From Clostridiales bacterium (GTDB lineage: Bacteria; Bacillota; Clostridia; Christensenellales; Aristaeellaceae): a stretch of 50,833 nt of DNA. The notes under the pieces were generated by a model. It searched no databases, had not been told where the DNA came from, and worked only from the letters and a program-made list of their open reading frames with translations. The position numbers and the translations under genes are program-made. The stretch is taken from NCBI GenBank assembly GCA_012729115.1, contig JAAYDR010000094.1:1-50833 (forward strand). Reading direction: 5' to 3'. Each line of letters opens with the position of its first letter. Position 1 is the first letter of the stretch. Below, piece by piece: positions 24,637 through 34,804 of this stretch.

Positions 24637-25401
24637 TTATGCTTCATTTTGGCCTTCCGTGTAAGTCTCCTGATCAAACCCTCCCCGCAATCGCTTCACA
24701 GTCCTCTCCAAGGCGTTCTTGCTGTCCCCCCAGGGTCTCCCATGGTTGCGGTAGTCGAACTGCTGGGTAAAGAACGCCAACTCCTCTTCCTCCCGTGTCA
24801 TGCTGGCCTTGAGCAACGCAAGGGCGGAGCTCGCCAGTTCCTGCTGCCTGGAGCCATGCAGGCTTTTTTTAGCCTTGCGCAGAAGCTCGATGGTATGAGG
24901 CATGCACGCGCCCTGGGATGCCTCCCACAGGGTTTTGAAATGGACGTCTGTTTTCCAGAGATGTAAAAAAGTATGGAAGTACCGGTCCATATGGGTGTTT
25001 ACACTATCGCAGATCACGCAGCTCACCGTGCATTGCTCCAGTTGCTTAAGGAGTGTATCCATGGGTGAAGAGCCGCTGCCGCTCCATGGGAGAGAAATGC
25101 CTTTTCTTCCTTTTTGCACCAAGCCTGAAAGGTGGTCCAGCTTGGGGAGCAGCTCCCTGCAGTGGGAGTCGGTAAGCAGGGCATGGCCCAGGCGGTTGTT
25201 TTGCTCCAGCAGCTGACAGTGATGCTTCGCGCAGATCCCCAACTCATTAAAGCGAATCCGGGAGGCGGGCTCCATCACCTTCTCACCCAGTGCGCACTGT
25301 ACCTCCTGCCGCTCACTTTGGCTTTGCAGCGCGCAGAAAGGGCACTGGCAATGTCCCTGCATCACTTCCCACAGTGGGATCGTATCCAAATGGTATTGCA
25401 T
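24637..25401 (-). CDS. Cys-rich protein resembling DUF6062
   Basis: This 254-residue protein is soluble with no signal peptide. Cys/His pairs recur along it: CQCPFC near residues 18-23, CAKHH near 57-61, CVICD near 127-131, and CMPHT near 165-169. The spacing suggests one or two zinc or Fe-S sites built from two CxxC/CxxxH repeats. I believe this matches the uncharacterised DUF6062 family, from memory only. The C-terminal part is charged and helical. It is convergent with comEB. No function is known to me. Confidence 0.7.
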   Translation of the reverse strand: MQYHLDTIPLWEVMQGHCQCPFCALQSQSERQEVQCALGEKVMEPASRIRFNELGICAKHHCQLLEQNNRLGHALLTDSHCRELLPKLDHLSGLVQKGRKGISLPWSGSGSSPMDTLLKQLEQCTVSCVICDSVNTHMDRYFHTFLHLWKTDVHFKTLWEASQGACMPHTIELLRKAKKSLHGSRQQELASSALALLKASMTREEEELAFFTQQFDYRNHGRPWGDSKNALERTVKRLRGGFDQETYTEGQNEA

Positions 25402-25533: not shown

Positions 25534-26364
25534 ATGGAGGAGAACAAACGGGTTTATCCGCGCGGTCAGCTGTCTGGAAAGTGGCTGAACTATCTGTTGC
25601 TGTTTCTGTCCGCCGTGCTGCTTCTGTCCGGGTTTTTCTGGCGGGGCACAGGGGAGGACGTACAGCTCAGCCTGGTGGACACGCCTACACCCATTCCTTT
25701 GGATGCCGCCTTTGACGAAACCATTGAGAGCCGGGAGATCACCCTGCCTGGCGAGATTTGGTATGCATTGCAGCTGGGGGCCTTTGACAAGGAGGAACTG
25801 GCGGTGAAACTGGCCCAGTCCTACCAGACCAGGGGGGCGGCAGGTTATGTGTGGCAGGATACACGGTTTCGTGCCCTGGCGGCCCTGTACCCCTCCAAGG
25901 ATGAAGTGCAGTCGGTCCGAACCCAACTGAGTACCAAGCACTACATCGAAACCTACGCCTATGAGATCCGGCTGCCTCCGCTCAAGCTGCGTATACGCGG
26001 GATGAGAGGCCAGCTGGACATCATGGAAGCAGGTTTCCTTCATGGAGGGGACCTGGTGGACCAGCTTCAGGAAGTTTCCGTGCTAATGGACCGGCAGGAG
26101 CTGGGCGTGGCGGAAGCCATGGAAAAGTTGAAGAACATTCGTAGCCAGATGGACATTGTCTCCCAGCGCTTGAGCGAGCGTTTTTCTCCACCCAGGCACC
26201 AGGCGGTCCAGGGGCTTTTGGATTGTTTCGCAGGGTATAGGGCCTTTTGTGAAGAGCTGGGCGAAGAAATCAACTCGGTGTTGTTGGCAACTCAGGTTAA
26301 GTTCCAGGCCATTGCCGCGCTGGATGCGCTTCGAAAGATTTACGATGGGCTGGCCAGTTCATAG
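25534..26364 (+). CDS. Membrane-anchored SPOR-like domain protein
   Basis: These 276 residues have a short basic cytoplasmic tail, one membrane helix (LNYLLLFLSAVLLLSGFFW, about 18-37), a stalk, and a SPOR-like domain at about 73-140 (YALQLGAFDKEELAVKLAQSYQ, then ALYPSKDEVQSVRTQL). SPOR domains bind denuded glycan strands at division or engulfment sites. The C-terminal half (about 150-276) is helical, possibly coiled coil. The ATG at 25534 has GGGAGG upstream. Earlier in-frame starts lack a site. It ends 13 bases before the first DRTGG gene, so it may be the promoter-proximal gene of the hydrogenase-sensor unit, which would be an unusual partnership. Confidence 0.8.
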   Translation: MEENKRVYPRGQLSGKWLNYLLLFLSAVLLLSGFFWRGTGEDVQLSLVDTPTPIPLDAAFDETIESREITLPGEIWYALQLGAFDKEELAVKLAQSYQTRGAAGYVWQDTRFRALAALYPSKDEVQSVRTQLSTKHYIETYAYEIRLPPLKLRIRGMRGQLDIMEAGFLHGGDLVDQLQEVSVLMDRQELGVAEAMEKLKNIRSQMDIVSQRLSERFSPPRHQAVQGLLDCFAGYRAFCEELGEEINSVLLATQVKFQAIAALDALRKIYDGLASS

Positions 26365-26377
26365 GAAGGATGAGAAG

Positions 26378-26737
26378 ATGACCATACAAGAGGTGGTCCA
26401 GATTGTGGATGCCCGTGTGCTCTGTGGGGAGGACAAGCTGTTTAGGGAAATCACAACCGCTTGCGGAGCGGATTTGATGAGTGACGTGCTGGCGTTTGTG
26501 AAGGACAATACTGTTTTGATTACCGGGCTCACCAATATGCACGTCATGCGTACGGCGGAGATGTTGGACATCCATTGCGTAATCTTTGCCAGGGGTAAAC
26601 TGCCCCAGGAGGAGATTTTGCAGGAAGCGCAGAAGCTTGGGATTGTAGTGCTCAGCACCCGGCATACCACCTATACCACCTGCGGGCTTTTGTACCAGGC
26701 AGGCATCCGGGGCACGGAGAAGAGCAACCCAGCCTGA
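26378..26737 (+). CDS. DRTGG-domain protein 1
   Basis: These 119 residues match the stand-alone DRTGG fold: LMSDVLAFVKDNTVLITGLTN, RTAEMLDIHCVIFARGKLP, and ILQEAQKLGIVVLST. DRTGG domains are best known between the CBS domains of some pyrophosphatases and in phosphotransacetylase N-terminal regions, where they accompany ligand or nucleotide regulation. Small single-domain versions are typical neighbours of [FeFe]-hydrogenase genes in Clostridia. GAAGGATGAG precedes the ATG. Its biochemical role in these clusters is not established. A paralogue is encoded at 28551-28898. Confidence 0.82.
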   Translation: MTIQEVVQIVDARVLCGEDKLFREITTACGADLMSDVLAFVKDNTVLITGLTNMHVMRTAEMLDIHCVIFARGKLPQEEILQEAQKLGIVVLSTRHTTYTTCGLLYQAGIRGTEKSNPA

Positions 26738-26759
26738 AAATGAGACAAGAGAGGCTGAC

Positions 26760-27209
26760 ATGGAAGAAATCGCATTGGTGGATACCTATCAGGTACGTCC
26801 GGGAGATTTTCGGACTGCGGGAGAGGCAGCCGCCTCCATCAAACGCAAGCTCAAGCAACTCGGCATCAACAGTGCGGTTTTGCGGCGAATCTCTGTGGCC
26901 AGCTACGAGGCGGAACTCAATTTGATCATCCACAGCTTTGGGGGATCGCTGACCATGGAGATGACCCCAGTTGAGCTGAGGCTGTATTCCAGGGATATAG
27001 GGCCGGGCATTGCCGATGTGGACAAGGCCATGGAAGAAGGATACTCCACCGCCAGCGAGGAAGCCCGGGACCTGGGCTTTGGTGCGGGAATGGGTTTGCC
27101 CAATATGCGGCGCAATGCCGACGCTTTTCGGATCCAAAGCAAGGTGGGGAAGGGCACCACCATCGAAATGTGCTTTGCCCTGCAACCGGCTGCTGAAGGA
27201 AGCCGCTAA
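26760..27209 (+). CDS. Stand-alone HATPase (RsbW/anti-sigma-type) protein 1
   Basis: This 149-residue GHKL ATPase domain has no dimerisation/His domain. The N-box is EAELNLIIHS (about residues 47-56), the G1 box RDIGPGI (about 79-85), and the G2 box GFGAGMGLPNM (about 105-115), ending with GKGTTIEMCF. Such proteins act as Ser/Thr kinases of the RsbW/SpoIIAB type or as nucleotide-controlled switches. The usual antagonist (STAS) and sigma factor are not present nearby. It lies 22 bases after DRTGG protein 1 and 27 bases before the HydS-like gene, so a regulatory link to the hydrogenase homologue is likely. Confidence 0.85.
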   Translation: MEEIALVDTYQVRPGDFRTAGEAAASIKRKLKQLGINSAVLRRISVASYEAELNLIIHSFGGSLTMEMTPVELRLYSRDIGPGIADVDKAMEEGYSTASEEARDLGFGAGMGLPNMRRNADAFRIQSKVGKGTTIEMCFALQPAAEGSR

Positions 27210-27236
27210 TGCAGCGGGAAGGGAGGAGGGATCACC

Positions 27237-28541
27237 ATGGTAGACAGGCGGTATCATTCGGTTCGTCTGGATAAGGGAAGATGCAAGGGCTGCACCGTTT
27301 GTCTGAAACGCTGCCCAACGGATGCCATTCGCGTGCGGGGCGGGCGGGCGCATATCATTGACGAGCGCTGTATCGATTGCGGGGAGTGTATTCGCGTTTG
27401 CAGTTATCACGCCAAGTATGCCCAAACCGATCCCCTGGCCAGCATCAATGGCTTCAAGTATAAAATCGCGCTGCCCGCCCCGTCTCTTTATGGGCAGTTC
27501 AAGAAGCTGATTTCCCCCTCCCAGGTGCTGGAAGGGTTATTGAAAATGGGATTTGACGATGTGTTTGAGGTGGCCCAGGGGGCAGACATCGTCACCCGGG
27601 CCATTCGGGAGCGGATGCGGAGCATGGACAAGGAGCGCCTTCCTGTCATTTCTTCCGCATGTCCTGCCATCACCCGGCTGATCCAGGTGCGTTTCCCGGA
27701 GTTGATCCCCCATATCATCGACATCCGTCAGCCCATGGAGCTGGCAGCCATGGTGGCAAAGCGGGAATTTTGTCAGAAGCACGGTGCTGCCCCTGAGGAG
27801 GTGGGTTGCTTTTTTATCACCCCCTGCGCAGCCAAAGTGACCGCAATCCGCAACCCAATCGGCCATGAGAACTCCAGCGTAGACGGAGCCATCTCCATGC
27901 TTGAAATCTACGGTCTTTTGGCCAGCCAGATGAAGAGCTATACCAGGGGAGTGAGCCTGTCCAAAGCGACCGCCTATGGGGTAGGCTGGGCCAACAACGG
28001 CGGAGAGTCCCAGGCGGTGTCTCCGGAGAACAGCATGGCCGTGGACGGCATTGAGAATGTCATCAGAGTACTGGAAGAGATTGAAAACAACAAGCTGCAG
28101 GACCTTGTGTTTTTTGAGGGGTCGGCATGCACAGGCGGCTGTGTAGGAGGGCCTTTAACCTTTGAGAACAGCTATGTAGCCCGTGGAGCCATTCGCGTGT
28201 TGATGAAGGGTTGCGATCTGACCCATCCCGACGACAAGGTGAACGCCTCCTATCTGAACAAGTATTCCATCAGGACGGACAAGCCCATTCACTCCAACAG
28301 TGCTTTGCGGCTGGATGAGGATGTGGTGGAAGCCATGCGCAAGATGGAGCAGATGGACGAGATTGTCAAGTCATTGCCGGGGTACGATTGCGGCAGCTGC
28401 GGCAGCCCGACCTGCCGTACCTTCGCGGAGGATATCGTACGGGGTTATTGCGACAGGATGGATTGCATCCATATTTTGAAGGATCAGCTGAAGATCATGG
28501 CGCAGAGAATGGTAGAACTGGCCAAAACGACCAGGAGGTAG
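27237..28541 (+). CDS. Sensory-type [FeFe]-hydrogenase homologue (HydS-like)
   Basis: The product has 434 residues. Two N-terminal [4Fe-4S] motifs (CKGCTVCLKRCP, CIDCGECIRVC, residues about 16-55) precede an H-cluster domain, and a C-terminal CGSCGSPTCRTFAEDIVRG (about 382-400) matches the 4Fe-4S domain of Fe-S sensor/acetyl-CoA synthase-type proteins. The H-cluster motifs are altered. L1 is SSACP (TSCCP in catalytic enzymes), so the proton-relay Cys is Ala while Cys142 remains. L2 is TPCAAK without the usual Glu. L3 is SACTGGCVGG. This is the pattern of group C/D putative sensory hydrogenases such as HydS, not of a bulk H2 enzyme. Neighbouring HATPase, DRTGG and PHP genes support a signalling role. 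Confidence 0.9.
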   Translation: MVDRRYHSVRLDKGRCKGCTVCLKRCPTDAIRVRGGRAHIIDERCIDCGECIRVCSYHAKYAQTDPLASINGFKYKIALPAPSLYGQFKKLISPSQVLEGLLKMGFDDVFEVAQGADIVTRAIRERMRSMDKERLPVISSACPAITRLIQVRFPELIPHIIDIRQPMELAAMVAKREFCQKHGAAPEEVGCFFITPCAAKVTAIRNPIGHENSSVDGAISMLEIYGLLASQMKSYTRGVSLSKATAYGVGWANNGGESQAVSPENSMAVDGIENVIRVLEEIENNKLQDLVFFEGSACTGGCVGGPLTFENSYVARGAIRVLMKGCDLTHPDDKVNASYLNKYSIRTDKPIHSNSALRLDEDVVEAMRKMEQMDEIVKSLPGYDCGSCGSPTCRTFAEDIVRGYCDRMDCIHILKDQLKIMAQRMVELAKTTRR

Positions 28542-28550
28542 AAAGTACAT

Positions 28551-28898
28551 ATGAAGGTCCAAGACTTGATGGAGATATTGTCTGCCCGCTGCCTGACTTG
28601 TCAGGCCAACCTGGAGGCGGAAGTCAGCTGCGGATATGCCTGCGATCTGCTCAGTTGGGTGCTGGCCCACGGCAGGAAGGGAATGGCCTGGGCCACCGTG
28701 CAAACTCATCTGAACGTCATTGCGGTGGCAGTGCTGATGGAAATGGCCTGCGTCATCCTGGTGGAAGGGGTTCTGCCGGAGGAGGCTACCCTGCGCAAGG
28801 CAGAGGAGGAAGGGCTTGCGATTCTATCCTCGGACAAAACCGCCTATGAGCTCTGCGGCCTGATGGCGAAGGCGGGGGTTTTGCCCCCCGAGGCTTAA
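28551..28898 (+). CDS. DRTGG-domain protein 2
   Basis: These 115 residues are paralogous to the protein at 26378-26737, with similar segments in order: a central HLNVIAVAVLMEMACVILVEG, then EATLRKAEEEGLAILSSDKTAYELCGLM. It lies nine bases after the HydS-like gene, with AGGAGG upstream of the ATG. The second DRTGG copy in the same unit suggests a two-component or heteromeric arrangement. No enzymatic residue can be pointed to. Confidence 0.8.
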   Translation: MKVQDLMEILSARCLTCQANLEAEVSCGYACDLLSWVLAHGRKGMAWATVQTHLNVIAVAVLMEMACVILVEGVLPEEATLRKAEEEGLAILSSDKTAYELCGLMAKAGVLPPEA

Positions 28899-28900
28899 CC

Positions 28901-29605
28901 GTGCTGGTCTACTGCGATCTCCATATCCATAGCTGCCTCTCACCCTGCGCCCAGGATGACATGACCCCAGCCAATGTGGTGGGCATGGCCTGTGTGAAGG
29001 GTCTGGATGTGATTGCTCTCACCGACCACAACTCCGCACTCAATCTGCCGGCAGCCATGGCTGCCGGCAAAGCCATGGGTGTTCAGGTAATTCCGGGTCT
29101 GGAGGTAACCAGCAGGGAGGATGTCCATGTGCTGGCATACTTTGATACCCTGGAGAATGCCCTGGCATTTGGAAAGATAATCGATACCCATCTGCCCTGT
29201 GTCCGCAACGAACCCTCTCTGTTTGGCAGGCAGAAGGTTGTGGATCCTCAAGACCAGGAGCAAGGCGAATGGGACAAGCTGCTCATTCATGCTACGGATT
29301 TTGGCCTGGAGGAGCTTTGCGCGCTGATTACCCGTCAGAGAGGCGTACCCGTGCCCGCCCACATCAACCGCGGCAGCAATGGCATGCTGGGCGCTCTGGG
29401 GCTGATGCCCGATTTGCCTGCCCACCCTGTGGTAGAGGTATCCCCATTCTCTGACTGTCCCTCCTATGCCACCCGGGGCAGGCTTGTCCTGCGCTCCTCG
29501 GACGCCCACCGCCTGGGGGACATCGCGGAGCGGGTTTTCGCTCTGGAGATACTCACACCTACGGCAAAGGGTGTTCTGGACCGGTTGCGGTATGGGCCAG
29601 CTTAA
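28901..29605 (+). CDS. PHP-domain metal-dependent phosphoesterase
   Basis: This 234-residue protein starts with GTG. PHP motifs are clear: DLHIHSCLSPC near residues 5-15, ALTDHNS near 40-46, a glutamate in GLEVTS near 67, PAHINRGSNG near 150, and RSSDAHRLGD near 202. These His/Asp residues bind two or three metals. PHP proteins hydrolyse phosphoester bonds (for example histidinol phosphate, 3',5'-pAp or short RNA). In hydrogenase-linked clusters the substrate is unknown. It starts two bases after DRTGG protein 2 and is the last gene before a strong terminator. Confidence 0.86.
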   Translation: MLVYCDLHIHSCLSPCAQDDMTPANVVGMACVKGLDVIALTDHNSALNLPAAMAAGKAMGVQVIPGLEVTSREDVHVLAYFDTLENALAFGKIIDTHLPCVRNEPSLFGRQKVVDPQDQEQGEWDKLLIHATDFGLEELCALITRQRGVPVPAHINRGSNGMLGALGLMPDLPAHPVVEVSPFSDCPSYATRGRLVLRSSDAHRLGDIAERVFALEILTPTAKGVLDRLRYGPA

Positions 29606-29636
29606 CAGTTTCACACGTGCTGATGGATGAAGAGAT

Positions 29637-29669
29637 AGATGTCGATTTTGCTCGACATCTGTTTTTTTT
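29637..29669 (+). terminator. Strong intrinsic terminator separating sensor and catalytic units
   Basis: A perfect 9-bp stem (AGATGTCGA / TCGACATCT) with a 6-base loop is followed by eight T residues, 31 bases after the PHP gene. Confidence 0.92.
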
Positions 29670-29700
29670 CAAAGATCGTCAAAAAAATATCATTTTCCTA

Positions 29701-29729
29701 GTGCAATTCGAGATTGGATATGGTAAGAT
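29701..29729 (+). promoter_or_regulatory. Putative promoter of the hydrogenase operon
   Basis: TGGTAAGAT is an extended -10 element (TGn-TAAGAT). A weak GTGCAA lies 17 bases upstream. It lies about 70 bases before the first gene and directly after the terminator at 29637-29669, consistent with an independent start. Confidence 0.5.
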
Positions 29730-29797
29730 ACATCTGCTGTGCTTGCAGGGTCGCAGCGCAGGATCACAGGCAGATGTTGAGGAGGGTACAGGCCGAC

Positions 29798-30274
29798 ATG
29801 TCCATGCAAAATGAGAAATACGATAAGCTGCGGCAAGTCATCGACGCCCATAAAGGCCAGTCGGGCGCGTTGATGCCGGTGCTGCAGGAAGCCCAGGGGA
29901 TTTTCGGGTGTGTTCCCATGGAGGTACAGGAAATCATTGCCGATGAACTGGGGACCACCCTTAGCGAAGTCTATGGTGTGGCCACGTTTTACTCCCAGTT
30001 TTCGCTTGAACCCAAGGGCAAGTACGTATGCGGCGTTTGTCTCGGAACGGCATGTTATGTGAAGGGCTCCCAGAAGGTACTGGATCGGCTTTGCAAGGAG
30101 CTGGACATTCCCACAGGTAAAACCACCCCGGATCAGCTCTTCACCATAGAGGCCACCCGTTGCCTGGGGGCTTGCGGCCTTGCTCCCGTGATGATGATCA
30201 ATGAGGACGTTTACGGACGCCTCACGGAAGATGAAATCCCCGATATTCTCGAAAAGTATCGGATTGCCCAATAA
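29798..30274 (+). CDS. NuoE/HndA-like [2Fe-2S] hydrogenase subunit
   Basis: This 158-residue thioredoxin-like ferredoxin subunit corresponds to NuoE/HydC/HndA. It has VLQEAQGIFGCVP, VYGVATFYSQF, CLGTAC (first Cys pair, near residues 80-85) and CLGACGLAPVMMIN (second pair). These four Cys bind [2Fe-2S]. The subunit shuttles electrons between NAD(P)H and the hydrogenase in the trimeric/tetrameric enzyme. The ATG at 29798 has GGAGGG eleven bases upstream; a more upstream start would precede the likely promoter-proximal leader. A HATPase gene follows three bases downstream. Confidence 0.92.
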   Translation: MSMQNEKYDKLRQVIDAHKGQSGALMPVLQEAQGIFGCVPMEVQEIIADELGTTLSEVYGVATFYSQFSLEPKGKYVCGVCLGTACYVKGSQKVLDRLCKELDIPTGKTTPDQLFTIEATRCLGACGLAPVMMINEDVYGRLTEDEIPDILEKYRIAQ

Positions 30275-30277
30275 ACC

Positions 30278-30829
30278 ATGATGCGGGATTTGTCGATGCA
30301 TGTGCTGGACATCACCCAGAACAGCATTCAGGCAGGAGCCGGAGAGGTCGGCATCTTCTTTGACATCGATGCCGGGAGGCGCATGACCCTCACAATCCGG
30401 GACAATGGCAGGGGCATGGAGCCGGAGCTGCTTTACAGGGTTACGGATCCCTTTACCACGACACGAACCACCCGCAGGGTGGGGCTGGGAATCCCGATGC
30501 TCATGCAAAGCGCCCAATTCTGCGGCGGCTCCTTTACCATCGACAGTGAGCTTGACCGGGGAACGGTTGTAGAAGCAGTCTTTCAGTTGGATCACATCGA
30601 CTGCCCGCCCATGGGCGCGATGTGCGACACGCTTTTTGCTTTGGTGATGCTCAATCCCAGTAAGCCTGAGTTCATGTTTGAAGCCAGGTCCCCATGCGGA
30701 TTTGCTTCCTTCGACACCCGGCTGGTGCGGGAGGCGGCAGGGGGAATCCCGCTCAGTGAGCCGGAATTGGCCCGGTGGATCAGGGAAGCCATTGAGGAAG
30801 AATTCAAACCGATTTTGGAGGTGCCATGA
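30278..30829 (+). CDS. Stand-alone HATPase protein 2
   Basis: The product has 183 residues. A GHKL ATPase domain carries DITQNSIQAGA (N-box, residues about 11-21), IRDNGRGM (G1), and VGLGIPMLM (G2). It has no sensor or His-phosphotransfer segment. The last 70 residues are an additional helical extension. Its position inside the hydrogenase operon between the HndA- and HndB-like genes is known for other Clostridial hydrogenase clusters. The role there, perhaps regulation or assembly, is unproven. Its stop overlaps the start of the next gene (ATGATGA). Confidence 0.86.
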   Translation: MMRDLSMHVLDITQNSIQAGAGEVGIFFDIDAGRRMTLTIRDNGRGMEPELLYRVTDPFTTTRTTRRVGLGIPMLMQSAQFCGGSFTIDSELDRGTVVEAVFQLDHIDCPPMGAMCDTLFALVMLNPSKPEFMFEARSPCGFASFDTRLVREAAGGIPLSEPELARWIREAIEEEFKPILEVP

Positions 30830-31203
30830 TGAAATCTCTTGCCGAATTGGAAGCGATCCGTCAGAAGACGTTAGACAAGGTAGCCATGCGCAAGGATACC
30901 GAGGATGGAATTCGCGTGGTGGTGGGGATGGCCACCTGCGGTATTGCCGCCGGCGCAAGGCCTGTGATGCTGGCTTTCCTGGAGGAGATCAACAAGCGTC
31001 ATCTCACCAACGTTACCGTGTCCCAAACCGGCTGCATCGGCGTATGCCGTCTGGAGCCCATGGCCGACGTGATGATCCCGGGCCAGGAAAAGGTCACCTA
31101 TGTAAATCTTAAGCCCGAAATGGTTCCACGGATTGTGGCGGAGCACATCGTGAATCGCCGGCCGGTGACCGAATACGCCATCGGCGCTGCCGAAAAACAA
31201 TAA
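30826..31203 (+). CDS. HndB-like [2Fe-2S] thioredoxin-fold protein
   Basis: This 125-residue protein matches the HndB subunit of NADP-reducing hydrogenase: VVVGMATCGIAAGARPVM near residues 31-48 and SQTGCIGVCRLEP near 66-78. Only three Cys are in the cluster region (one plus a CxxxC pair), where typical [2Fe-2S] ferredoxins have four; HndB-type proteins often show this. It may be an electron-transfer or structural subunit. It is overlapped by the HATPase stop and followed by the flavoprotein 23 bases later. Confidence 0.85.
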   Translation: MMKSLAELEAIRQKTLDKVAMRKDTEDGIRVVVGMATCGIAAGARPVMLAFLEEINKRHLTNVTVSQTGCIGVCRLEPMADVMIPGQEKVTYVNLKPEMVPRIVAEHIVNRRPVTEYAIGAAEKQ

Positions 31204-31226
31204 ACGCAGGTTGGAGGGGAAGTATT

Positions 31227-33020
31227 ATGGATCTTTATCGCGCGCACGTGCTGGTCTGCGGCGGCACCGGCTGTACCTCGTCCGGCTCTGCGGATCTGAT
31301 CAAACGCTTTGAGGAGCAGCTGGCGCTCCATGGCCTGGACCGGGAGGTCAAGGTTGTTCGCACGGGTTGTTTCGGCCTATGCGAGGCAGGCCCTGTGGTC
31401 ATCGTGTATCCCGAGGGTACGTTCTATTCGCGCATTGCCCCCACGGACGTGGATACGATTGTTGCGGAGCATCTATTAAAAGGCCGCATCGTGCAGCATC
31501 TGGTCTACAAGGACAAAACCAAGCAGGATTCCACAGACTTGTCCCTTGAACAGATTGATTTTTACCGCTCTCAAAAGCGCATTGCCCTGCGCAACTGTGG
31601 TGTGATCGATCCGGAGAACATCGATGAGTACATCGCCTTTGACGGTTACAAGGCCCTGGGTAAAGCTCTTACCCAAATGACCCGGGAGCAGGTTATCGAT
31701 GAAATTCTCAAGTCCGGTTTGCGGGGCCGTGGCGGCGGAGGGTTCCTGACAGGCCTTAAGTGGAAGTTTACCTACAACTCCCAGTCGGATCAAAAATACG
31801 TAGCATGCAACGCCGATGAGGGTGACCCTGGCGCGTTCATGGATCGCTCGGTCCTGGAAGGCGATCCCCACGCGGTGATAGAGGCGATGGCCATCGCGGG
31901 CTATGCCATTGGAGCCAACACCGGCTATATTTACGTCCGCGCTGAGTACCCCATTGCGGTAAAGCGCCTGCAAATCGCCATCGACCAGGCCCGTGAGTAT
32001 GGGCTGCTGGGGAAGAGAATTTTTGGCACAGACTTTGATTTTGAGCTGTTCATTCGCCTTGGCTCCGGTGCCTTTGTCTGCGGCGAGGAAACGGCGTTGA
32101 TGGCCTCCATCGAGGGAGGCCGCGGCGAACCCCGGCCCCGTCCTCCCTTCCCGGCGGTGAAAGGCCTCTTTGGCAAGCCCACCATGCTTAACAATGTGGA
32201 GACCTACGCCAACGTACCGCAAATCATTCTCAATGGCTGGGAGTGGTTTGCTGGAATCGGCACCGAGCGCAGCAAGGGTACCAAGGTCTTTGCCCTGGGT
32301 GGCAAAATCAACAACACGGGCTTGGTGGAGGTGCCTATGGGCACGCCTCTTCGGGATATCGTCTACCACATCGGCGGCGGTATCCCTGGGGGCAAGAAGT
32401 TCAAGGCTGTGCAAACCGGCGGGCCCTCCGGCGGATGCATTCCCGCCGAGCACCTTGACATTTCCATCGAATATGACACTCTGGTGGAAATTGGCTCCAT
32501 GATGGGCTCCGGCGGTATGATTGTCATGGACGAGGACAACTGCATGGTGGACATCGCTCGCTACTTCCTGGACTTCACCGTGGATGAAAGCTGCGGCAAA
32601 TGCACACCCTGCCGTATCGGAACCAAGCGCATGCTGGAGATTCTGGAGCGCATCGTAGCGGGTAAAGGCGAGGAAGGCGACATTGAAAAGCTGGAAAACC
32701 TCGCCAAAAACATCAAGGCGACAGCCCTTTGCGGCCTGGGCCAGAGCGCACCCAATCCGGTGCTGTCCACTCTGAAGTTCTTCCGCTCCGAGTATGAGGC
32801 CCATATCAAAGACAAGCGCTGCCCGGCTCACCATTGCCAGAGCCTGCTCAATTTCTTCATCACCGATAAATGCCGTGGCTGCACGGCCTGCACCAAGGTA
32901 TGCCCCGTCAATGCCATCAGCGGTACGGTCAAAGAGTTGCACCACATCGATCTGGAAAAGTGCATCAAGTGCGGCTCCTGCATAGAAAAATGCCGCTTTG
33001 GCGCTATCACCAAGAACTGA
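31227..33020 (+). CDS. NuoF/HydB-like flavoprotein subunit of the hydrogenase
   Basis: The product has 597 residues. Domain order: an N-terminal [2Fe-2S] thioredoxin-like domain (CGGTGCTSSGS ... TGCFGLCEAGP), the NuoF FMN/NAD-binding core (LRGRGGGGFLTGLKW near residue 168, ACNADEGDPGAFMDR near 192, GAGAY-equivalent GSGAFVCGEETAL near 280), an SLBB segment, a [4Fe-4S] site (ESCGKCTPCRIGT), and a C-terminal 2[4Fe-4S] ferredoxin domain (CRGCTACTKVCP, CIKCGSCIEKCRFG). The architecture is that of HydB/HndC, the NAD(P)H-oxidising and presumed electron-bifurcating subunit. AGGTTGGAGGGG precedes the ATG. Confidence 0.96.
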   Translation: MDLYRAHVLVCGGTGCTSSGSADLIKRFEEQLALHGLDREVKVVRTGCFGLCEAGPVVIVYPEGTFYSRIAPTDVDTIVAEHLLKGRIVQHLVYKDKTKQDSTDLSLEQIDFYRSQKRIALRNCGVIDPENIDEYIAFDGYKALGKALTQMTREQVIDEILKSGLRGRGGGGFLTGLKWKFTYNSQSDQKYVACNADEGDPGAFMDRSVLEGDPHAVIEAMAIAGYAIGANTGYIYVRAEYPIAVKRLQIAIDQAREYGLLGKRIFGTDFDFELFIRLGSGAFVCGEETALMASIEGGRGEPRPRPPFPAVKGLFGKPTMLNNVETYANVPQIILNGWEWFAGIGTERSKGTKVFALGGKINNTGLVEVPMGTPLRDIVYHIGGGIPGGKKFKAVQTGGPSGGCIPAEHLDISIEYDTLVEIGSMMGSGGMIVMDEDNCMVDIARYFLDFTVDESCGKCTPCRIGTKRMLEILERIVAGKGEEGDIEKLENLAKNIKATALCGLGQSAPNPVLSTLKFFRSEYEAHIKDKRCPAHHCQSLLNFFITDKCRGCTACTKVCPVNAISGTVKELHHIDLEKCIKCGSCIEKCRFGAITKN

Positions 33021-33046
33021 CGGACACCGTCGTGGGAGGAACAGCT

Positions 33047-34804
33047 ATGGAACAAATGATTCAATTAACCATCGATGGCGTAAAGGTGGAGGTTCCTGCC
33101 GGTACCACCGTGCTGGAGGCAGCCCGGGCAGCAAATGTGATTATTCCCACCCTTTGCTACCTAAAGGATATCAATGAAACCGGCAACTGCCGCATTTGCG
33201 TAGTGAACAGCGGAGCGCGCTCTCTGCAGGCGGCCTGTGTACTGCCTGTGTCCCAGGGCATGGTGGTGAAAACCAACACCCCCGAGGTTCGGGAAGCCCG
33301 CAAGGTAAACCTGGAGCTGATTTTGAGCAATCATGACAAGAAATGCCTTTCCTGTATCCGCAGCCAGAACTGCGAGCTTCAGAAGCTCTGTCTGGATTTG
33401 GGTGTGGACAATGGTGACCGCTTTGCCGGGGAGAGGAACGAGTATGAAGTGGACGACGTCTCCCCCTCCATTGTGCGGGACAACAACAAGTGTGTCCTTT
33501 GCCGCCGCTGTGTGGGCGTCTGCAACCAGGTTCAGAAGGTGGGTGTGATTGGGGCCGTCAAACGGGGTTTCCATACAGCCATCGAATCCCCCTGGGATCT
33601 GAAGCTTGCTGAGATGGCTTGCATCAACTGCGGCCAGTGCATCACGGTTTGCCCCGTCGGTGCTCTGAGGGAAAAGGACGAAACCGCTCTGGTTTGGAGT
33701 TATCTCAGCGACGATAAAAAGCACGTGGTCGTCCAGCCTGCTCCCGCTGTCCGCGCTGCCTTGGGCGAGGAGTTTGGTCTGCCCATTGGCACCAGCGTTA
33801 CAGGAAAAATGGCTGCCGCTCTACGCCGCCTTGGCTTTGACAAGGTGTTTGACACTGATTTTGCCGCGGACCTGACCATCATGGAGGAAGCCAACGAGTT
33901 GGTGGGCCGTATCCAAAACCATGGGGACTTGCCCATGATCACCAGTTGTTCCCCGGGCTGGATCAAGTTCTGCGAGCACTATTATCCACAGTTCCTGCCC
34001 AATCTGAGCACCTGCAAATCTCCCCATGAGATGGAAGGAGCCATGATCAAGAGCTACTATGCCCAAAAGGCAGGTTTGAATCCCAAGGATATTGTGGTGG
34101 TGTCCGTGATGCCTTGCACAGCCAAGAAGTATGAAGCCAAGCGGCCCGAGCTTAGCGGTACCGGATATCCTGATGTGGATGCGGTAATCACCACCCGTGA
34201 GTTGGCGCGGATGATCAAGGAAGCGGGTATCAACTTTGCGAACCTGCCTGACGAGGATTTTGACGACCTGTTGGGTGAAAGCTCCGGCGCCAGTGTGATT
34301 TTCGGAGCCACCGGCGGCGTCATGGAGGCGGCCCTGCGGACTGCATATAAGATTATCACCGGTCAGGAACTCGCCGATGTAGAGTTCCATGCCGTGCGCG
34401 GCGTGGAGGGCATCAAGGAAGCCACAGTCAAAGTGGGTGATATGGATGTCAACGTGGCCGTGGCACACAGCACCGGTGAGGCCGCCAAGCTTCTGGATGC
34501 GGTTAAGAGCGGTGAAAAGCAGTATCACTTCATCGAGGTCATGGGCTGCCCGGGCGGATGCGTAAATGGGGGAGGCCAGCCCATCGTACCCTCCTCCATC
34601 CGTTCCTTTACAGACATCCGGGTGGAGCGTGCCAAGGCTCTCTACAACGAGGATGTATCCAAGCCGATCCGCAAGAGCCATGAAAATCCTCAGATCAAGA
34701 AGGTATACGAGGACTTTCTGGAGAAGCCAAACAGCCACAAAGCCCACCGCCTGCTCCACACCACGTATACGAAGAGGCCCAAGTATAAGCCCGCGGAAAG
34801 CTGA
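33047..34804 (+). CDS. hydA: Catalytic [FeFe]-hydrogenase subunit HydA
   Basis: The product has 585 residues. In order: a plant-type [2Fe-2S] domain (CYLKDINETGNCRICVV, residues about 34-50), a His-Cys [4Fe-4S] site (HDKKCLSCIRSQNC, about 95-108), two [4Fe-4S] motifs (CVLCRRCVGVC, CINCGQCITVCPVG, about 150-205), then the H-cluster domain. H-cluster motifs are TSCSPGW (L1), MPCTAKKYE (L2) and EVMGCPGGCVNGGGQP (L3). L2 and L3 are fully canonical; L1 has Ser where TSCCP is usual. The small C-terminal subunit-like tail (SHENPQIKKVYEDFL) is present. The ATG at 33047 has GGGAGGA upstream. It catalyses 2H+ + 2e- to H2. With the upstream subunits it is a trimeric, probably bifurcating (group A3-like) enzyme. 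Confidence 0.97.
   Translation: MEQMIQLTIDGVKVEVPAGTTVLEAARAANVIIPTLCYLKDINETGNCRICVVNSGARSLQAACVLPVSQGMVVKTNTPEVREARKVNLELILSNHDKKCLSCIRSQNCELQKLCLDLGVDNGDRFAGERNEYEVDDVSPSIVRDNNKCVLCRRCVGVCNQVQKVGVIGAVKRGFHTAIESPWDLKLAEMACINCGQCITVCPVGALREKDETALVWSYLSDDKKHVVVQPAPAVRAALGEEFGLPIGTSVTGKMAAALRRLGFDKVFDTDFAADLTIMEEANELVGRIQNHGDLPMITSCSPGWIKFCEHYYPQFLPNLSTCKSPHEMEGAMIKSYYAQKAGLNPKDIVVVSVMPCTAKKYEAKRPELSGTGYPDVDAVITTRELARMIKEAGINFANLPDEDFDDLLGESSGASVIFGATGGVMEAALRTAYKIITGQELADVEFHAVRGVEGIKEATVKVGDMDVNVAVAHSTGEAAKLLDAVKSGEKQYHFIEVMGCPGGCVNGGGQPIVPSSIRSFTDIRVERAKALYNEDVSKPIRKSHENPQIKKVYEDFLEKPNSHKAHRLLHTTYTKRPKYKPAES

Follow-up and report, generated by a model that had tools for sequence, protein, structure and literature searches.

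A conserved five-gene set around a sensor-type [FeFe]-hydrogenase in Clostridia as a candidate H2- or redox-signalling module

Introduction

How might a hydrogenase that senses H2 pass its signal on? The question is raised by a six-gene unit in a 50,833-nucleotide stretch of DNA from a Clostridiales bacterium (contig JAAYDR010000094.1, assembly GCA_012729115.1), which was analysed over its whole length and is called the window below. In this unit a putative sensory [FeFe]-hydrogenase, HydS, is encoded together with a SPOR-domain membrane protein, two stand-alone DRTGG-domain proteins (DRTGG1 and DRTGG2), a small GHKL ATPase and a PHP-family phosphoesterase, just ahead of a catalytic hydrogenase operon. 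Group D [FeFe]-hydrogenases have been classed as sensory owing to nearby kinases and bifurcating hydrogenases (PMC3561251), and a histidine kinase gene and a group D-like gene were described upstream of a bifurcating operon in Thermoanaerobacter (PMC3608648). An initial annotation of the window had read the unit as a possible signalling chain. Here we confirm the gene unit itself, show that five of its genes form a module conserved beyond chance, and find the signalling interpretation partly supported.

Results

Five genes around HydS form a conserved module

The six genes lie on one strand and are separated by gaps of 13, 22, 27, 9 and 2 bp (Table 1), as tightly packed as had been claimed. 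Each predicted domain scored above its Pfam cut-off: SPOR in the head gene with 26.9 bits (cut-off 21), DRTGG with 48.7 bits in DRTGG1 and, marginally, 26.4 bits in DRTGG2 (cut-off 25.2), HATPase_c_2 with 28.1 (27.4), Fe_hyd_lg_C with 128.7 (22.1) and PHP with 36.4 (26.4). The window genome (3.15 Mb in 124 contigs) holds only two DRTGG matches, both within the unit, and four matches to PF02906, two of them inside the window.

A HydS scan of species genomes yielded at least 567 confirmed relatives, and the neighbourhoods of the best 80 (L005-L084) were compared. The window's own copy (L004) was omitted; further L codes denote loci from the sample or genus genomes described below. Exclusion of L079, in which HydS is incomplete, and of L041, whose contig begins within HydS, left 78 loci. 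DRTGG1, ATPase, HydS, DRTGG2 and PHP were all present in 64 of these 78, a count that is biased toward conserved neighbourhoods in that the best 80 loci are the closest relatives. Among the incomplete loci, some of them cut by contig ends, seven had DRTGG1, ATPase and HydS only and four lacked one gene. The ATPase gene was found in every one of the 77 loci with at least 1 kb of upstream sequence (the window's copy counted). Median gaps across the module in relatives, with starts picked by script, were -1, 28, 15 and 2 bp.

A sample without this bias consisted of the first 40 (G001-G040) of 147 genomes drawn evenly over the class Clostridia, in which every PF02906, DRTGG and module-type ATPase match was listed. 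Stand-alone DRTGG genes (frames of at most 160 aa) lay within 3 kb of a PF02906 gene in 36 of 41 cases and within 6 kb in 39 of 41, as against ~0.8% expected by position, and none of the 22 DRTGG matches in longer frames lay within 3 kb of such a gene. Module-type ATPases formed a sharply bounded group of 19 (E ≤7e-41, next GHKL match 1e-14) from 18 families; 18 of them had a HydS frame of 422-473 codons 235-394 bp away, and the remaining one lay at a contig end. Module-type PHP genes also numbered 19 (E ≤2e-82, next match 2e-20); counted by hand, 16 lay no more than 1.5 kb from a PF02906 gene and all 19 no more than 4.3 kb. ATPase and PHP occurred together in 18 genomes, were both missing from 20 and occurred singly in two (Fisher p 3e-9); in one of these two mismatches (G020) the contig ends just upstream of HydS.

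The neighbourhood survey that the initial annotation had proposed thus upholds its claim that HydS, the paired DRTGG proteins, the ATPase and PHP belong together. The five genes form a conserved module beyond chance, because 36 of 41 stand-alone DRTGG genes adjoin a PF02906 gene where ~0.8% would be expected, and these subfamilies are hardly found elsewhere in the sampled genomes. A transposase-like gene (by eye) on the opposite strand separates HydS from DRTGG2 in one genome from the genus of T. wiegelii (L110:5557-6891).

Table 1. Features of the HydS gene unit and its surroundings (positions in the window)
Feature	Positions	Strand	Remarks
SPOR-domain membrane protein, 276 aa	25534..26364	+	Pfam SPOR, residues 77-139, E 6e-6; minority neighbour, not core
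DRTGG1, stand-alone DRTGG-domain protein, 119 aa	26378..26737	+	PF07085, E 7e-13
SpoIIAB/RsbW-like GHKL ATPase, probable serine kinase as predicted from sequence, 149 aa	26760..27209	+	PF13581
HydS, group D (M2e) [FeFe]-hydrogenase, putative H2 sensor, 434 aa	27237..28541	+	PF02906 3.7e-37; two Fer4; PF04060; no PAS
DRTGG2, stand-alone DRTGG-domain protein, 115 aa	28551..28898	+	PF07085, 26.4 bits
PHP-family metallo-phosphoesterase, 234 aa	28901..29605	+	GTG start; PF02811, E 8.7e-9
Intrinsic-terminator-like hairpin and T-run	29637..29669	+	fold of 29606-29680
Downstream catalytic operon: NuoE-like, second GHKL ATPase, Trx-ferredoxin-like, NuoF-like, HydA (group A6)	29798..34804	+	

HydS has the features of a group D sensory hydrogenase

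Group D has been defined by Ala in place of C299, Ser or Thr in place of M353, and residues E252, D265 and E289 (PMC8163306, PMC10407848). In the window HydS, A141 occupies the C299 position of CpI (74 Ala and 5 Ser in an alignment of 79 sequences) and T195 the M353 position (62 Thr, 16 Ser, 1 Ala), while the equivalents of TamHydS E252, D265 and E289 are E257 (78/79), D270 (79/79) and E294 (79/79). The H-cluster cysteines C142, C197, C298 and C302 and the motif C385-x2-C388-x4-C393-x16-C410 are present in all 79, and Pfam found no PAS domain. By these sequence features HydS belongs to the sensor-type [FeFe]-hydrogenases, as the initial annotation had proposed, and more precisely to group D (M2e). 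It closely matches the only member of this group to have been characterised, TamHydS of Thermoanaerobacter mathranii, with which it shares its class, two N-terminal [4Fe-4S] motifs, Cx2Cx4Cx16C and the lack of a PAS domain (PMC8163306, PMC10407848). After removal of four frame residues, positions 137, 249, 252, 265, 289 and 379 of T. wiegelii HydS agree with the TamHydS numbering (PMC10407848, PMC13104023).

The position of TamHydS S249, part of a proposed proton path, is Asn254 in the window and thus without a hydroxyl; 58 of the 79 aligned sequences have Ser and 8 have Thr. S249 is not a defining feature, and Asn254 does not exclude membership of group D, because this position is described as only moderately conserved (PMC10407848). 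The C-terminal cluster was not reduced by H2 in the published work (PMC13104023).

The ATPase resembles the serine kinases SpoIIAB and RsbW

The initial annotation had called the ATPase a nucleotide-binding switch; a GHKL ATPase it is, and the generic label can be replaced by a more specific one. Its best profile match in the PDB was SpoIIAB (1til, E 1e-11), and its structural model (predicted local distance difference test score, pLDDT, 93.8) matched the folds of SpoIIAB (1til, E 3.7e-10, template modelling score TMq 0.75) and RsbW. Residues E50, N54, D79, G81, G83, G108, G110, M111 and G112, including the DxGxG and GxGMG motifs, were invariant in 79 of 79 sequences, and E50 and N54 (E-x-x-x-N) line up with the equivalent Glu-Asn pair in SpoIIAB. 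In serine kinases of this type the Glu is the catalytic base and the Asn binds Mg. Pfam found no HisKA phospho-acceptor domain in the 149-aa protein. Judged from its sequence, the ATPase is probably a SpoIIAB/RsbW-like GHKL protein of the serine-kinase type.

A second, different GHKL ATPase is encoded at 30278-30829 of the window, inside the hydABC operon, where it recurs in relatives. By eye, it has Asp at the position of the SpoIIAB catalytic Glu.

DRTGG1 and DRTGG2 share an invariant serine, and PHP its predicted metal site

The AlphaFold2 model of DRTGG1 (mean pLDDT 89.4) was closest, by Foldseek, to AF1212 (2ioj, TMq 0.80) and to the DRTGG region of the C. perfringens pyrophosphatase CnPPase (TMq 0.71; AF1212 and CBS-pyrophosphatase matches span 0.70-0.80), and HPr kinase was also among the closest folds. 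In DRTGG1, D32 and S35 were conserved in 75 of 75 sequences and T49 in 74 of 75; in DRTGG2 all three were conserved in 69 of 69. AF1212, weakly aligned around D32 and S35, has Met and Gln at these two positions and has the T49-G50 pair in common with DRTGG1. In the model Ser35 stands directly before a short helix, in a block (residues 31-40) of mean pLDDT 65.

Lone DRTGG genes were seen in three further places: inside hydABC (L091:3475-3801) and after hydA (L092:7965-8306), both in genomes without the module ATPase and both without Ser35 by eye, and between tyrS-like and hslO-like genes, named by eye, in a genome without the module (L093:4708-5037).

In the PHP protein, H8, H10, D42, H43, E68 and H76 were conserved in 66 of 66 sequences, H154 in 64 of 66, and D201 and H203 in 63 of 66, the remainder being gaps. 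We take these nine positions to be metal ligands.

The SPOR gene is a neighbour of the module

The SPOR protein at the head of the unit had been put forward as an additional partner, and this part of the annotation did not hold. A SPOR gene lay upstream of DRTGG1 in 11 of the 78 related loci. In the 40-genome sample it was found in nine genomes at E < 1e-8 and in 11 at E ≤ 0.001, neither of the two added matches lying near a module. It stood 37-203 bp upstream of DRTGG1 in five of the nine and thus headed five of the 19 sampled modules, and the other four of the nine SPOR genomes had no module ATPase. A strongly diverged SPOR gene upstream of other modules could escape detection. Elsewhere it was seen upstream of hydABC without the module (L087), near pcrA (L088, by Pfam) and beside groESL-like genes (L089, by eye; profile match 8e-18, no Pfam SPOR match). 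In the genus Thermoanaerobacter, to which T. wiegelii belongs, the DRTGG pair was present in 8 of 10 genomes and SPOR was just upstream in all eight. We therefore rejected SPOR as a core member, on its presence in 11 of 78 loci and five of 19 sampled modules and its occurrence elsewhere in four of nine genomes: it is a dispensable neighbour that may be co-transcribed with the module. A loose linkage may exist, in that SPOR often heads the unit in some lineages.

In T. wiegelii (L049:8403-20226), SPOR and maf-radC-mreB flank the module and hydABC, with maf-radC-mreB right after hydABC, and in L090 (4128-7661; by Pfam) SPOR adjoins maf-radC-mreB directly. Hence the block made up of the module and hydABC was either inserted into a cluster of envelope genes or lost from one.

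Terminator and Rex-type sites around the downstream hydrogenase operon

The unit precedes a catalytic hydrogenase operon, as had been noted: 192 bp beyond the PHP gene follow NuoE- and NuoF-like genes and a HydA that passed the NCBI model for A6 NADH-dependent [FeFe]-hydrogenases (927.7 bits, cut-off 765). Across related loci, hydABC-type catalytic genes followed HydS in 34 of the 58 with at least 6 kb of downstream sequence; the link is common and not universal. The strong terminator that had been claimed for the end of the unit was also borne out by a hairpin, AGATGTCGA-TTTTGC-TCGACATCT, followed by GTTTTTTTT, read directly from the sequence; the surrounding stretch folds with -25.3 kcal/mol (z -3.71), and the hairpin was absent from the list of a simple terminator scan. 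A crude test found a hairpin and T-run in only 10 of 37 PHP-NuoE gaps of relatives, and we dropped the terminator as a conserved feature of the module, since that of the window is not general. In C. thermocellum, the group D gene Cthe_0335 (PMC3561251) shows growth-phase expression unlike that of other [FeFe]-hydrogenases (PMC3478167), a pattern that fits separate transcription.

Among the 38 PHP-NuoE gaps compared (those of 37 loci plus that of the window), 18 had a Rex-type site, and 104 permuted palindromes gave at most 11. The gap of the window (29606-29800) has no such site, its best candidate having five mismatches, and judging by this the window's lineage may lack Rex control of hydABC. 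Upstream of the module itself, 10 of 73 regions had a Rex-type site, and 2 of 104 permuted palindromes equalled or exceeded this, so that no Rex control of the module is claimed. A hydrogenase operon of A. thermocellus, Clo1313_1885-1881, has been reported to carry a Rex peak in DNA affinity purification sequencing (PMC8457756). We infer that the group D module precedes this operon, on the basis of gene numbers in the type strain and of the A. mesophilus locus (L069), which also suggests Cthe_0333-0337 as the module genes of the type strain.

In such relatives transcription of hydABC thus already has an NADH-responsive regulator, and an H2 input from the module would probably take a different route. 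None of the module proteins matched a DNA-binding family, and no transcription factor, sigma factor or STAS protein was seen to recur in a set position among the 40 largest neighbour clusters; together with the Rex sites at the hydABC promoter of many relatives, this leads us to think it more likely that the output is exerted at the protein level than through transcription. The lone DRTGG genes inside or just after hydABC (L091, L092) likewise suggest that the target is the enzyme and not DNA.

Recurrent neighbours with a fixed place were mainly parts of hydABC, DUF6062, a deaminase and SPOR, and the remaining clusters were shadow frames, ABC transporters at scattered positions and minor neighbours in some lineages, groESL among them. 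The DUF6062 gene of the window lies at 24637-25401 on the minus strand, divergent to the unit; DUF6062 and the deaminase were each near the module in 12 loci.

Discussion

We put at roughly 50% the probability that the five genes form a dedicated H2- or redox-signalling module in which HydS gates a serine-kinase/phosphatase switch on DRTGG domains. Binding of H2 at the H-cluster would change the shape of HydS, and the SpoIIAB-like ATPase would respond with a change in its activity or its binding. The ATPase would phosphorylate DRTGG1, DRTGG2 or both, the invariant Ser35 being the most plausible site, and PHP would take the phosphate off again. The phosphorylation state of the DRTGG pair would then set the output, more probably protein-level control of the bifurcating hydrogenase than control of transcription. 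Such a mode of working would be like the partner switching of SpoIIAB and RsbW, by likeness only. More tentative is the specific version of H2-gated partner switching, in which the DRTGG proteins would replace STAS proteins as phospho-serine acceptors, PHP would serve as phosphatase and HydS as gate, and the bifurcating hydrogenase would be controlled directly instead of a sigma factor.

Several observations weigh against a serine-kinase switch. The ATPase shares with SpoIIAB and RsbW the fold, the ATP-binding motifs and the E-x-x-x-N pair; it is nevertheless not SpoIIAB itself, because it reached 52 bits with TIGR01925 (SpoIIAB) against a cut-off of 135, and its candidate partners are DRTGG proteins. 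No STAS-type substrate was seen nearby: neighbouring frames of at least 90 aa, from 7 kb upstream to 9 kb downstream, were clustered, and by eye none of the 40 largest clusters, the last of which hold five loci, was a sigma factor, STAS, SpoIIE or helix-turn-helix protein, the rest of the genome not having been searched for STAS. Phosphorylation is not known for any DRTGG protein. The closest curated models and solved structures of PHP are nucleases and nucleotide phosphatases of the EndoQ and RNase AM type, not known protein phosphatases. The set can also be reduced or rearranged: three of the 78 loci have ATPase and HydS alone, one sample genome (G031, L095) has lost PHP and has none between DRTGG2 and NuoE, and no catalytic genes follow HydS within the locus in 24 of the 58 loci with at least 6 kb downstream. 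Lone DRTGG genes without an adjoining HydS exist (L091, L092, L093), two of them without Ser35, and a response-regulator-like family occurs near five loci, in scattered places on both strands and in none fixed.

The PHP relatives bear most directly on a second explanation, a nucleotide-signal module in which the DRTGG proteins would bind a nucleotide, PHP would degrade it, the GHKL protein would read the ATP level and HydS would set the state. We regard it as doubtful, and it stays alive because those relatives are nucleotide phosphatases and nucleases. It also gains from the folds closest to DRTGG1, namely AF1212, the regulatory region of the C. perfringens pyrophosphatase and HPr kinase, the DRTGG/CBS region of the clostridial pyrophosphatase being part of a nucleotide-regulated enzyme. 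In CBS-pyrophosphatase, however, it is the CBS domains that bind the nucleotides, and Pfam found none in either DRTGG protein. No nucleotide synthase or cyclase was seen by eye among the 40 largest neighbour clusters, and the serine-kinase residues of the ATPase would be left unexplained.

It is unlikely that the ATPase, the DRTGG pair and PHP instead help to assemble HydS or the bifurcating hydrogenase, to insert its clusters or to keep it stable, HydS then being a partner subunit and not a sensor. The DRTGG genes inside or right after hydABC in two genomes without the module ATPase (L091, L092) would suit such an accessory role, as would the second GHKL gene within hydABC. TamHydS, however, was produced in a heterologous host and received a synthetic cofactor, the accessible parts of the reports naming no partner, and HydEFG is given there as the maturation machinery (PMC8163306, PMC10407848); moreover, 17 of the 36 sample genomes that carry PF02906 lack the module ATPase.

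Classical two-component signalling, in which the ATPase would supply the catalytic part of a histidine kinase while a regulator of AraC type took the signal to DNA, is implied by the published description of the TamHydS operon and is suited by the scattered response-regulator-like genes; we consider it very improbable. The ATPase lacks HisKA and has the Glu of serine kinases. The published neighbours of TamHydS are a kinase and an 'AraC regulator', whereas T. wiegelii has the same five genes as the window, followed by hydABC, and the genes that flank its HydS encode the SpoIIAB-type ATPase and a DRTGG protein; seven further genomes of its genus have the same genes by local profiles, one of them with the foreign gene between HydS and DRTGG2. 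Pfam searches with the ATPase and the two DRTGG proteins of T. wiegelii, and local profiles in these seven loci, found no AraC regulator beside HydS, and the 'AraC regulator' published beside TamHydS is, by comparison with these eight loci, most likely a DRTGG protein.

Neutral co-inheritance without a shared biochemical pathway can hardly be credited either: the pairwise distances of the five proteins do correlate at 0.65-0.86 (64 loci and the window), as in any co-inherited operon and, with no outside control, with little weight, but the 19 genomes with the module ATPase span 18 families, catalytic positions stay invariant while identity to the window proteins falls to 28-41%, and the subfamilies are almost never apart.

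The proposed signalling module can be set beside related systems. Like HydS, the group C enzymes (TmHydS, Cthe_0426) are putative H2 sensors whose genes lie close to those of bifurcating hydrogenases. In C. thermocellum the group C gene has a neighbour, Cthe_0427, that is annotated as SpoIIE-type (PMC3848806, PMC3561251), so that groups C and D both adjoin relatives of the SpoII switch. They differ in that group C carries a PAS domain (PMC13104023), whereas the group D HydS of the window has none and is accompanied by DRTGG and PHP proteins. The module DRTGG proteins share fold and family (PF07085) with the CBS-pyrophosphatase region and AF1212, and differ from them in being stand-alone, paired and linked to hydrogenase; their invariant D-x-x-S is absent from AF1212, in a weakly aligned stretch. 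In the open literature searched, hydrogenase and DRTGG appeared together only in one unrelated paper, the clostridial survey of Calusinska et al. may show some of the neighbours, and no paper combined hydrogenase with PHP domain and HATPase, or HydS with hydrogenase, kinase, phosphatase and sensory. That HydS lies beside a 'kinase' is already known; the full module and its exclusivity are apparently undescribed.

The module offers a concrete candidate for the route by which an H2 signal is passed on, and a short list of dedicated partners, the ATPase being present in 19 of the 40 Clostridia genomes sampled, about half. If the signalling reading is true, it would give stand-alone DRTGG domains a role and show a way in which fermenting bacteria, gut and rumen lineages among them, might tune H2 production to the level of H2.

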